A stretch of DNA of 64,000 nucleotides from the NCBI RefSeq assembly GCF_000935025.1, contig NZ_CP010836.1:3906001-3970000 (forward strand), given 5' to 3'. Shown in pieces: positions 3,391-25,371 of the stretch; position 1 is the first letter of the stretch; every line of letters begins with the position of its first letter. Below the pieces are notes generated by a model. The model was not told where the DNA came from. It saw only the letters and a program-made list of their open reading frames with translations, and ran no database searches. The translations under genes were made by a program, and so were the position numbers. Source of the stretch: Sphingomonas hengshuiensis. Lineage in GTDB: Bacteria > Pseudomonadota > Alphaproteobacteria > Sphingomonadales > Sphingomonadaceae.

Positions 3391-3536
3391 CTGTTTGAAA
3401 AATGCGCGGAAGAGCGCATTTTTGTTGCGGCCCCGGCCCGCTCCCCCACCCGGCCACCCATAGAATACACTGGCGTTGGGTGGCCGGGTGGGGGAGCGGG
3501 CCGGGGCCGCAATGCGCCGTCAGGCGCACAAAAACC
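3391..3536. repeat. Palindromic element 1 (long inverted repeat with flanking hairpins)
   Basis: Perfect 36-bp arms at 3425-3460 and 3477-3512 enclose a 16-base loop (3461-3476) that starts TAGAATA. To the left is a small hairpin with 10-bp arms AAAAATGCGC/GCGCATTTTT (3398-3423, loop GGAAGA), preceded by GGCTGTTTGAAA. To the right is a smaller one, TGCGCC/GGCGCA (3513-3528). The element starts a few bases beyond the argG stop codon (3542-3544) and ends upstream of the FAD oxidoreductase. Two related copies lie at 19761 and 24274. It could act as a bidirectional terminator or mRNA 3' stabiliser; read on the minus strand, the left hairpin ends in a T run. Confidence 0.9.
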
Positions 3537-3541
3537 CCGCT

Positions 3542-4762
3542 TTAGCGCCCGTCGCGGCGCCCCAGCAGGCGCAGGCGGAGCGCCTGGAGCTTGATGAAGC
3601 CCGCAGCATCGCGCTGGTCATACGCGCCCTGATCGTCCTCGAACGTCACCACCTTCTCGCTGTACAGCGTGTGCGGCGACTTCCGGCCCGTGACGATGAC
3701 ATTGCCCTTGTACAGCTTCAGCCGGACGGTGCCCGTCACCTTCTCCTGGCTATGGTCGATCGCGGCCTGGAGCATCTCGCGCTCGGGCGCGAACCAGAAG
3801 CCGTTATAGATCAGCTCGGCATAGCGCGGCGCCAATTCGTCCTTCAGGTGCGCGGCGCCGCGATCCAGCGTGATCTGCTCGATCCCGCGATGCGCGAGGT
3901 GGTAGATGGTCCCGCCCGGGGTCTCATACATGCCGCGCGACTTCATGCCGACGAAGCGGTTCTCGACCAGGTCGAGGCGACCAATGCCGTGCTTGCGGCC
4001 CAGTTCGTTGAGCGCGGCGAGCAGCGTCGCCGGGCTCATCGCCTCGCCGTTCAGCGCGACGCCGTCGCCGCGTTCGAAATCGATCGTGATCGTCTCGGGC
4101 GCGTCGGGCGCGTCCTCGGGGTTCACGGTGCGCGAATAGACATAATCGGGGACCTCGTCCCACGGGTCCTCCAGCACTTTGCCCTCGGACGAAGTGTGCA
4201 GCAGGTTCGCGTCGGTCGAGAAGGGCGCTTCGCCGCGCTTGTCCTTGCTCACCGGGATCTGGTGCTGCTCGGCGAATTCGATCAGCCGGGTACGGCTGGT
4301 CAGATCCCATTCGCGCCACGGCGCGATCACCTTGATATCGGGCGCGAGCGCATAATAGCCGAGCTCGAAGCGGACCTGGTCGTTGCCCTTGCCGGTCGCG
4401 CCATGGCTGACCGCGTCGGCGCCGACCATCTTCGCAATCTCGATCTGGCGCTTGGCGATCAGCGGCCGCGCGATCGACGTGCCGAGCAGGTACAGCCCCT
4501 CATACAGCGCATTGGCGCGCATCATCGGGAAGACGAAGTCGCGGACGAACTCCTCCTTCAAATCGTCGATGAAGATATGCTCGGGCTTCACCCCCGCCAT
4601 CTCGGCCTTGCGCCGCGCGGGTTCCAGCTCCTCGCCCTGCCCCAGATCGGCGGTGAAGGTCACGACTTCGCAGTTATACGTCTGCTGGAGCCACTTCAGG
4701 ATCACGCTGGTATCGAGCCCGCCCGAATAGGCGAGGACGACTCGGTTGATCTGATCGGACAT
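3542..4762 (-). CDS. argG: Argininosuccinate synthase
   Basis: A 406-residue enzyme that joins citrulline and aspartate with ATP to give argininosuccinate, the penultimate step of arginine synthesis, in the cytoplasm. The N-terminal [15 protein letters not shown] is the ATP pyrophosphatase loop. Downstream segments [15 protein letters not shown] and [12 protein letters not shown] match the citrulline and aspartate binding regions of the family. Length is that of the usual bacterial enzyme (about 400-445). A GGAG precedes the ATG. It is transcribed alone: 83 bases separate it from cfa upstream, and its 3' end runs directly into palindromic element 1, which may terminate it. No regulatory leader was recognised. 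Confidence 0.96.
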
Positions 4763-18688: not shown

Positions 18689-22520
<3,832 letters not shown>

Positions 22521-24202: not shown

Positions 24203-24273
24203 GCAATCTCCTCCGCGACGCCTGCCGCTAGAGGAAATCGCGCCCGCCTGACAACCACAAAGCCCTTAGCCTT

Positions 24274-24419
24274 TGTTTGGAAATGCGCCGTGGCGCATTT
24301 CGCGGCACCGGCCCGCTCCCCCGCCCGGCCACCCATAGAATACTGCCGTCGGGTGGCCGGGCGGGGGAGTGGGCTGGTGCCGCACTGAAATTCGCTCTTC
24401 CGCGAATTTCCAAACAGCC
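24274..24419. repeat. Palindromic element 3, flanks reversed relative to its loop
   Basis: Core arms 24302-24334 and 24351-24383 (33 bp, with two G-T wobbles) enclose a 16-base loop containing TAGAATACTGCCG. The left hairpin is GAAATGCGCC/GGCGCATTTC (24280-24301), and the right is GAAATTCGC/GCGAATTTC (24387-24410). Outer ends TGTTTGGAAA (24274-24283) and TTTCCAAACA (24407-24416) are inverted copies of each other. It ends two bases before the stop codon of the 2OG oxygenase gene. The order of the two small hairpins is opposite to that in element 2, although the loop reads in the same direction. Confidence 0.92.
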
Positions 24420-24420
24420 A

Positions 24421-25371
24421 TTACTTCTTGATCAGCCCGATTTCGACCAGCCGCTCGTGCAGATAGTCGTGCGCGGTGATCGGCGAGGGATAGCGGTTCG
24501 GACGCGCGCCATCGATGCAGCCGGGCAGCGTCTCGATCAGGAAATCGGGTGCCGGGTGCAGGAAAAACGGCATCGAATAGCGCGAATGCCCGCGTCGCTC
24601 GGGCGGCGGATTGACGACGCGGTGCGTGGTCGAGGGCAGGACATGGTTGGTCAGCCGTTGCAGCATGTCGCCGACATTGACGACCATCGCGCCCTCGGGC
24701 GGTTTGATCGACAGCCATTTGCCATCGGCGTCGAGAAGCTCGAGCCCCGCTTCCTCCGCCCCGAGCAGCAGCGTGATGAGGTTGATATCCTCATGCGCCC
24801 CGGCCCGAACCTCGGGCGCGTCCGCATCGACCGGCGGATAGTGGAGCAGCCGCAATACCGAATTGCCGTCCTTCACCGCCGGATCGAACCAGTCCGGAGC
24901 GAGCCCGAGATAGCGGGCGATCGCAGACAATAGCCGGTCGCCGGCATCGTCGAACGCCTGGAACAGTTCGAGGAAGGTCTCGCGAAACCCCTCGGGCCGG
25001 TCGGGCCAGACATTGGGCGCCATCTGCGCGGCAAACCGATGCCCCGCAGCCAGTTCGCGCCCGACGTGCCAGAATTCCTTGAGGTCGACATGCGTCGCGC
25101 CCTTGGCAATCTCGGTCTTGAACGGCGTATAGCCGCGCGCGCCGCCGGCCCCGTCGAGGTACAACGCGCGCTTTTCGGCCTCCGGAAGCGCGAAAAACGC
25201 CTTGGTCATCGCCCAGGCGCGCTCGATCAGCGGCTGGGGAATGCCATGGTCACGCACGACCGCGAAGCCAAACTGCTGGAACGACTGGCCGAAGCGCTGG
25301 GCGAAGCCGTCCGGATCGGATGCCTGGTCGGCCAGCGAGAGCGCCGGGATTTCGGCGAGAGTGTCAAACAT
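24421..25371 (-). CDS. 2-oxoglutarate/Fe(II)-dependent dioxygenase (isopenicillin N synthase family)
   Basis: A 316-residue protein of the non-haem iron oxygenase family. The N-terminal DIOX_N region reads IPALSLADQASDP, then QFGFAVVRDHGIPQPLIERAW. The iron ligands are in GAHEDINLITLLLG (HxD) and STTHRVVNPP (distal His), and RYSMPFFLHP supplies the RxS that binds 2-oxoglutarate. Such enzymes hydroxylate or desaturate diverse small molecules; the substrate is not predictable. The gene is monocistronic between hom and a lipoprotein gene, and its stop lies two bases from element 3. Confidence 0.88.
   Translation of the reverse strand: MFDTLAEIPALSLADQASDPDGFAQRFGQSFQQFGFAVVRDHGIPQPLIERAWAMTKAFFALPEAEKRALYLDGAGGARGYTPFKTEIAKGATHVDLKEFWHVGRELAAGHRFAAQMAPNVWPDRPEGFRETFLELFQAFDDAGDRLLSAIARYLGLAPDWFDPAVKDGNSVLRLLHYPPVDADAPEVRAGAHEDINLITLLLGAEEAGLELLDADGKWLSIKPPEGAMVVNVGDMLQRLTNHVLPSTTHRVVNPPPERRGHSRYSMPFFLHPAPDFLIETLPGCIDGARPNRYPSPITAHDYLHERLVEIGLIKK

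Follow-up and report, generated by a model that had tools for sequence, protein, structure and literature searches.

Introduction

REP/BIME sequences are palindromic, intergenic and placed at gene 3′ ends, with small hairpins in inverted pairs; those linked to a RAYT (Y1 tyrosine transposase) are described with a GTAG or CGTC tag at the foot of the stem (PMC3733652). E. coli REPs lying less than 16 nt from a stop codon are reported to reduce translation (PMC12306157). Caulobacter CcrM-associated intergenic repeats (CIR) are inverted-repeat elements of ~110 bp in Alphaproteobacteria, conserved between species, and the section of PMC2229807 that treats them lists them without TIRs and with GANTC in the hairpin loop. 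RUP and Correia/NEMIS repeats have TIRs and target duplications, and SPRITE is terminator-like (parts of PMC2229807 and PMC10969869). These are likewise small bacterial repeats, of other hosts and IS families, for which the cited sections mention no stop-codon target. In the IS1031 group, insertion sites of three nucleotides are frequent (PMC2516522).

We analysed three palindromes in a window of 64,000 nucleotides of Sphingomonas hengshuiensis (NZ_CP010836.1). They resemble IS5-family MITEs and IS1031-group IS (IS1031A, ISGdi1) in their ends (GAGNCYG...) and 3-bp TNA duplication, and are probably a short non-coding derivative moved in trans. In contrast to the IS1031 group, TIR identity to the resident IS is only partial (GAGCCTGATTCGAAA against GAGNCYGTTTGRAAA), and a conserved palindromic core and stop-codon placement are found here. 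The elements share palindromic form, inverted pairs of small hairpins and 3′-end placement with REP/BIME, but differ in that most carriers tested have no RAYT, in the TNA duplication, in the giant central palindrome and in a core kept across families. From CIR, also intergenic inverted-repeat elements of Alphaproteobacteria as described in that source, they are set apart by description: TIRs are present, GAGTC occurs only in some ends and the core loops are AGGATA/GGATAC-like.

Our main reading, with a probability of roughly 0.78, is that the palindromes are a non-autonomous MITE family put at TNA by an IS5-family (IS1031-group) transposase acting in trans, with a class-wide core as cargo. The MITE kind itself is known; new here is stop-codon insertion together with a class-wide palindromic core on IS5/IS1031-type MITEs. 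No published description of the family was noticed among open-licence PMC papers, and in these papers and Rfam it is so far without a name. In Rfam the window had no match above the gathering score, only sub-threshold look-alikes, the best being mir-3937 and mraW.

The three window elements

The first-pass annotation had reported three copies of a long palindrome, each behind a stop codon. All were found where it had placed them, and the limits of copies 2 and 3 were refined by their TIRs. The features are as follows.

About 3391..3536, no strand: copy 1, a compound element behind argG in which two hairpins enclose a giant palindrome; degenerate ends, TNA duplication not clear
3428..3509, plus strand: core palindrome of copy 1 (loop orientation plus)
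3542..4762, minus strand: argG (argininosuccinate synthase), whose stop codon (3542-3544) adjoins copy 1
19754..19756, plus strand: recF stop codon TGA, the left target-duplication copy of copy 2
19757..19962, no strand: copy 2, GAGACC...GGGCTC, in the recF/gyrB gap; variant whose left core arm holds an additional hairpin; limits set by TIRs
19963..19965, plus strand: TGA, the right target-duplication copy of copy 2
24266..24268, plus strand: TTA, the left target-duplication copy of copy 3, read from the sequence
24269..24420, no strand: copy 3, GCCTTTGTTTGG...CCAAACAGCCA, behind the 2OG-Fe(II) oxygenase gene; limits set by TIRs
24303..24382, plus strand: core palindrome of copy 3, flipped against the outer hairpins when compared with copy 2
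24421..24423, minus strand: the oxygenase stop TAA, TTA on the plus strand, the right target-duplication copy of copy 3; one base off the strict position used in the own-genome duplication count

The annotated placement behind stop codons thus holds for argG, recF and the oxygenase gene; copy 3 has the oxygenase and homoserine dehydrogenase genes as neighbours. Copies 1 and 3 folded into one giant stem and two small hairpins, with z-scores of -14.3 and -11.4, respectively, against dinucleotide shuffles, in agreement with the compound structure, unlike simple REPs, proposed before. In the folds of copy 3 and of locus L009 the terminal GTTTG/CAAAC also pair, giving a cloverleaf, and a U run closes the first hairpin of copy 1. 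The loop motif TAGAATA, described as shared by the window copies, is variable elsewhere, with AGGATA or GGATAC frequent across the class. Duplicated TNA at the ends, a flipped core in some copies and class-wide spread are features beyond those annotated.

Copies in the genome and their placement

BLAST of the own genome gave 61 matches in 31 places. Thirty of these hold a full core (three in the window and 27 more), besides decayed copies, which bears out the earlier view of a dispersed repeat family and goes against the outcome named as refuting it, a lack of further copies. TIRs with at most two mismatches were present at both ends of 21/30 copies, the other nine lacking one or both. Copies with both ends are 151-155 bp long, with two exceptions of 206-207 bp (n = 21), and no gene lies inside the elements. 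By inspection, six own copies, including window copy 3, have a core inverted with respect to the hairpins on either side. Seven further sites with the end motif and one weak BLAST place were read for decayed forms. L039, L040 and L041 retain one end and a piece of core arm, L042 one end and a piece of the arm-insert variant, and L043 both ends with the core missing; L035 has a collapsed core and L037 an end hairpin only. L038, inside a gene, looks like a chance match.

The copies favour gene 3′ ends. In the own genome 12 were convergent, 17 tandem, one divergent and none inside called genes; the remaining intergenic regions of these loci, counted from 60 bp upwards, divide 7/41/28. Genes were called with a home-made caller that put the gyrB start in the wrong place as long as the core had not been masked. 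The core-to-stop distance had a median of 45 (10th-90th percentile 36-58; 41 distances), and the core-to-start distance a median of 103 (19 distances). The GTDB matches listed split into 32 convergent, 50 tandem and 11 divergent copies, with 10 lying in a called gene and 18 at a contig edge (other regions 49/193/116). The IMG/VR set gave 3 convergent, 24 tandem, 0 divergent, 3 in-gene and 3 edge cases (other regions 3/75/13), a tandem share that operon layout alone may explain. Two RefSeq-annotated plasmid copies lie 34 and 23 bases behind annotated stops.

Spacing to the stop was tight. A same-strand stop was in range for 31/43 core-side TIR-type ends, 24 of the 31 lying 3-9 nt from GTTTG and 14 exactly 6 nt. 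Counted by copy, the stop lay at 5-7 nt in 17/30 and at exactly 6 nt in 12/30. Outside genes in the own loci, 97/555 TNA triplets are stop codons (17.5%); against this null, which takes no account of selection against promoter insertions, the enrichment has P = 1.5e-6 (≥17/30) or, strictly, P = 0.003 (≥12). The first hairpin of a typical copy starts about 12 nt past the stop. In G193, a one-contig genome of another family, four (L282-L285) of seven copies read with 1.5-kb flanks sit exactly on the called stop.

Ends, target duplications and empty sites

Family ends read TNA followed by the TIR GAGNCYGTTTGRAAAT (TNA|GAGNCYGTTTGRAAA in the own element). At end positions -9 and -7, T was found in 25/42 and A in 27/42, respectively, the base between them being even. 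The strict count of target duplications in the own genome was modest, 5/21 against 1.8 expected (p = 0.019), and other offsets or widths did no better; with one-base spacer slips allowed it was about 9/21 by eye. A clearer signal came from G193, where the end type GAGACCGTTTGAGAA is found on 17 elements, including two without a core. The triplets on the two sides (TGA, TCA or TAA) are identical in 11/17, against a mean of 4.7 on re-pairing (p = 0.0002); one record pair is identical including flanks, and 10/16 remain without it. TIRs stand at both ends in 17/18 of the G193 loci read, with element lengths of 140-178 bp. Two elements about 2.4 kb apart in congener G049 each have TCA on both sides (2/2 read). 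Among class-wide copies, the TIR pair score reached ≥11 in 11% of 136 versus 1.7% of re-paired ends, and most have no clear pair. TNAGAG ends as a universal trait of the class were rejected (23/270 ends versus 11 and 3 in two controls). In G193, the same element, with the same near flanks, lies close to both contig ends (C1 11382-11921 and 4604718-4605257; L297 and L309), perhaps an untrimmed circular overlap or a duplication.

Relatives provided empty sites. At the recF locus the core was absent from all 28 relatives read, ten of which have gyrB within 1.2 kb; L254, with no reading frame, was left out, and in a few other recF loci the frame end is unlike RecF. The G073 sequence runs TGA-AAGGGCC...CATTTTGCTTTCG where the window has TGA-element-TGA-...CATTTTGCTTTCG. 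The L010 locus was likewise without a core in 19/19 relatives, and the protein upstream ends GIDQSAA* in the own genome and 15/19 relatives, QTAA* in three and NAA* in one.

The core palindrome as proposed cargo

The core is ~80 bp long, with 32-bp arms (own consensus CGGYRCCGGCCCGCTCCCCCRCCCGGCCACCC and its complement) and a loop of ~16 nt. In a class-wide alignment (A2) of 74 cores, drawn from more than 139 available, 94.9% of pair cells were standard pairs, and 141 cells had changed on both sides versus a shuffled mean of 37.7; sliding by 1-3 columns gave 9-21. Another alignment, A1, left out copy 2 and L025, which carry the arm insert. A-T/T-A swaps exceed G-U in several core pairs, and we infer that whole-arm correction of a DNA palindrome fits this excess as well as RNA selection does. 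In 49 copies obtained with BLAST or with the model, mean variation in the right arm is 1.6% over the 14 G-run columns, versus 15.7% for the other nine columns of the 23-mer, and isolated G columns of this arm are invariant too. A G4 reading was not singled out: the motif occurs on both strands in 37/49 copies, 26% of shuffled single arms have it and the non-run G columns are equally invariant. Among 139 loops, AGGATA was found 44 times and GGATAC 35 times, the best shuffled 6-mer reaching at most 7; loop orientation was picked on related motifs, so these counts are inflated.

Families differ in their outer hairpins and TIRs but keep the inner palindrome, and the core resembles a conserved cargo whose vehicles change. 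Fast-changing ends around a slow-changing core are the reverse of what is expected of a MITE. In G362 the core has different flanks and ends, in one case CTAGATCGTTCCA...TGGAACGATCTAG. Elements without the core were also found: two of 46 bp in G193 (TIR-hairpin-TIR, one with TCA on both sides) and one of 46 bp in congener G112 with TTA on both sides. In all 14 G193 elements that carry the core and whose hairpin could be read, GAGAATG flanks the core module on both sides, exactly in six and with one mismatch in eight (L310, with no hairpin, and the duplicate L309 were left out). These observations fit core insertion into a core-less MITE or, equally, core loss between short repeats. With one arm's G positions nearly invariant and its loop conserved, the class-wide hairpin cassette might, as a tentative extension, be an independent mobile or selected unit carried on lineage-specific mini-transposons that land on stop codons.

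Distribution in Alphaproteobacteria

BLAST with the core of copy 1 matched 14/41 genomes, own included, comprising 11/24 congeners and 2/16 other members of the order. A model (R1) matched 15/240 class genomes, own included, each giving 2 to 19 matches. Copy numbers cannot be read from these figures, since both palindrome strands count and at most 19 candidates were scored per genome. The family had been taken as one of this lineage, a scope that proved too narrow: the core occurs in 13/202 class genera and 13 families. A pattern scan of GTDB contigs gave at least 119 stretches, among them Sphingomonadales, Kiloniellales, Minwuia, Kordiimonadales, Roseospira and Acetobacteraceae, and the core is also present on a contig of Sphingomonas sp. 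dw_22. A further record, L146 (RPSH01000012.1, 'Bacillus sp. 2B10'), has the core in a stretch of 70% G+C and is probably mislabelled or contaminated.

The core was also found in three plasmid records and 29 IMG/VR stretches; none was found in the phage records searched. A plasmid search with the TIR hairpin of copy 2 matched one record only, from Novosphingobium. Typing of three IMG/VR stretches identified L215 as a gene-transfer-agent cluster with terminase, portal, protease, capsid and Rcc01698-like genes; L188 has the same tail-sheath-like gene and L198 a phage sheath gene. Within L187-L215, core copies lie between structural genes of gene-transfer-agent-like clusters (e.g., L208, L210 and L215), in L215 directly behind the capsid gene.

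Candidate mover and alternative explanations

The earlier suggestion that a transposase moves the elements is probably right, with ends and target duplications pointing to an IS5/IS1031-type MITE. The own genome encodes three PF13340 transposases, and GAG-type TIRs with a TNA duplication were found in L231 only. This IS5-family (IS1031-group) element carries a 277-aa transposase frame that is open, and its ends read TCA|GAGCCTGATTCGAAAGTT...AACTTTCGGATCGGGCTC|TCA, with TCA duplicated; its TIR (TCA|GAGCCTGATTCGAAA) is similar, not identical, to that of the element. Plasmid relatives of L231 are annotated IS5, ISGdi1 or IS1031A. GAGCC-type ends and a duplicated TTA were present in 4/5 plasmid IS copies, the fifth (L266) having no TIR, and TNA was duplicated in 5/6 IS1031-group IS with GAGCC ends examined, L231 included. 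Searches for an IS with the element's own TIR gave no inverted pair at IS distance in the own genome or G193 (≤1 mismatch) and none among exact matches in 101 genus genomes, where a lone 2.6-kb pair (G049) consists of two distinct elements. The nearly identical IS copies in G193, compared at six loci, were rejected as mover, their ends (CTAG|GCCATAC...) having no match to the element. An IS1031-group transposase is put forward as candidate mover in trans; the mover is unproven because no IS with identical TIRs was found. A broken IS200-like Y1 frame lies in the IS-rich locus L036 (G000:C1 4565700-4568882), beside other transposase-like frames.

The lack of an IS with the element's own TIR in these searches counts against the MITE reading, as do the modest own-genome duplications, the 9/30 copies without one or both TIRs, the many class-wide copies without a clear TIR pair and the different ends in G362. 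Several convergent copies also have two different end stops, which is unexpected from plain target duplication. The core might instead be a hairpin cassette mobile in its own right, entering unrelated MITEs and other hairpins, with the TIR-bearing flanks as one vehicle only. Occurrence of the core in 13 families among flanks and TIRs that differ, the 46-bp core-less elements, the GAGAATG repeats and the flipped core of six own copies argue for this. It is nonetheless doubtful: a palindromic TIR would produce the GAGAATG repeat as well, so core-less elements may have arisen by deletion, and the 14 G193 copies probably derive from one event. We know of no enzyme for such an insertion.

Selection on a non-mobile host element, a bidirectional terminator or mRNA stabiliser whose copies are alike through functional constraint, would account for the 3′-end bias, the tight stop spacing, the strong covariation, the copies between genes of gene-transfer-agent operons and the U run at the end of the first hairpin of copy 1. 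Patchy occurrence in the genus, with 11/24 congeners positive, the empty sites in relatives and the target duplications make this unlikely, and by inspection U runs are not general among the listed copies. An even less probable origin is a REP/BIME-type one, in which two inverted REPs (the small hairpins) surround a palindromic linker and a RAYT is the mover. Two unlike, inverted, lineage-specific hairpins at intergenic 3′ ends are consistent with it, as are Y1_Tnp matches in core-bearing G030 and G036. Against it, the RAYT gene that the first-pass annotation had raised is represented in the own genome only by a truncated 84-aa Y1_Tnp frame broken by a stop, and 11/13 core-bearing relatives had no match (G001, G003, G004, G005, G007, G008, G011, G015, G017, G021 and G023). 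The 3-bp TNA duplication is, to our knowledge, not a RAYT trait.

Proposed insertion at stop codons

Under the preferred MITE reading, an IS5-family (IS1031-group) transposase would act in trans on the elements and insert them at TNA. Its targets would be TAA, TGA, TTA and TCA, the full set of TNA words, each of which reads as the stop TAA or TGA on one strand or the other. A hit on a stop codon would therefore duplicate it, leaving a stop on both sides and the protein unchanged. Other TNA sites would mostly lie within genes, where insertions would be purged. A TNA-preferring transposase would therefore have a built-in safe harbour, filling gene 3′ ends while genes stay unbroken, which offers a simple explanation for the close association of some bacterial palindromic repeats with stop codons.

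In mRNA the core would form a very stable 3′-end hairpin, and its likeliest effect there is on 3′-end stability or local termination; landing behind genes would thus be harmless or mildly useful. Lowered translation through a hairpin near the stop, as for E. coli REPs, is conceivable for these elements. The family would add such hairpins in many genomes, gene-transfer-agent operons and plasmids included.

Two minor observations concern the copies themselves. Own copies are mildly clustered around 3.49-4.38 Mb, window included, the densest 500 kb holding 10 (p = 0.022, for a single choice of interval length). The extra hairpin insert of ~50 bp in one core arm (GATGCTTCGCATC-type), at 19803-19858 in the window, recurs in L025, L110 and L159 and is found in several species.
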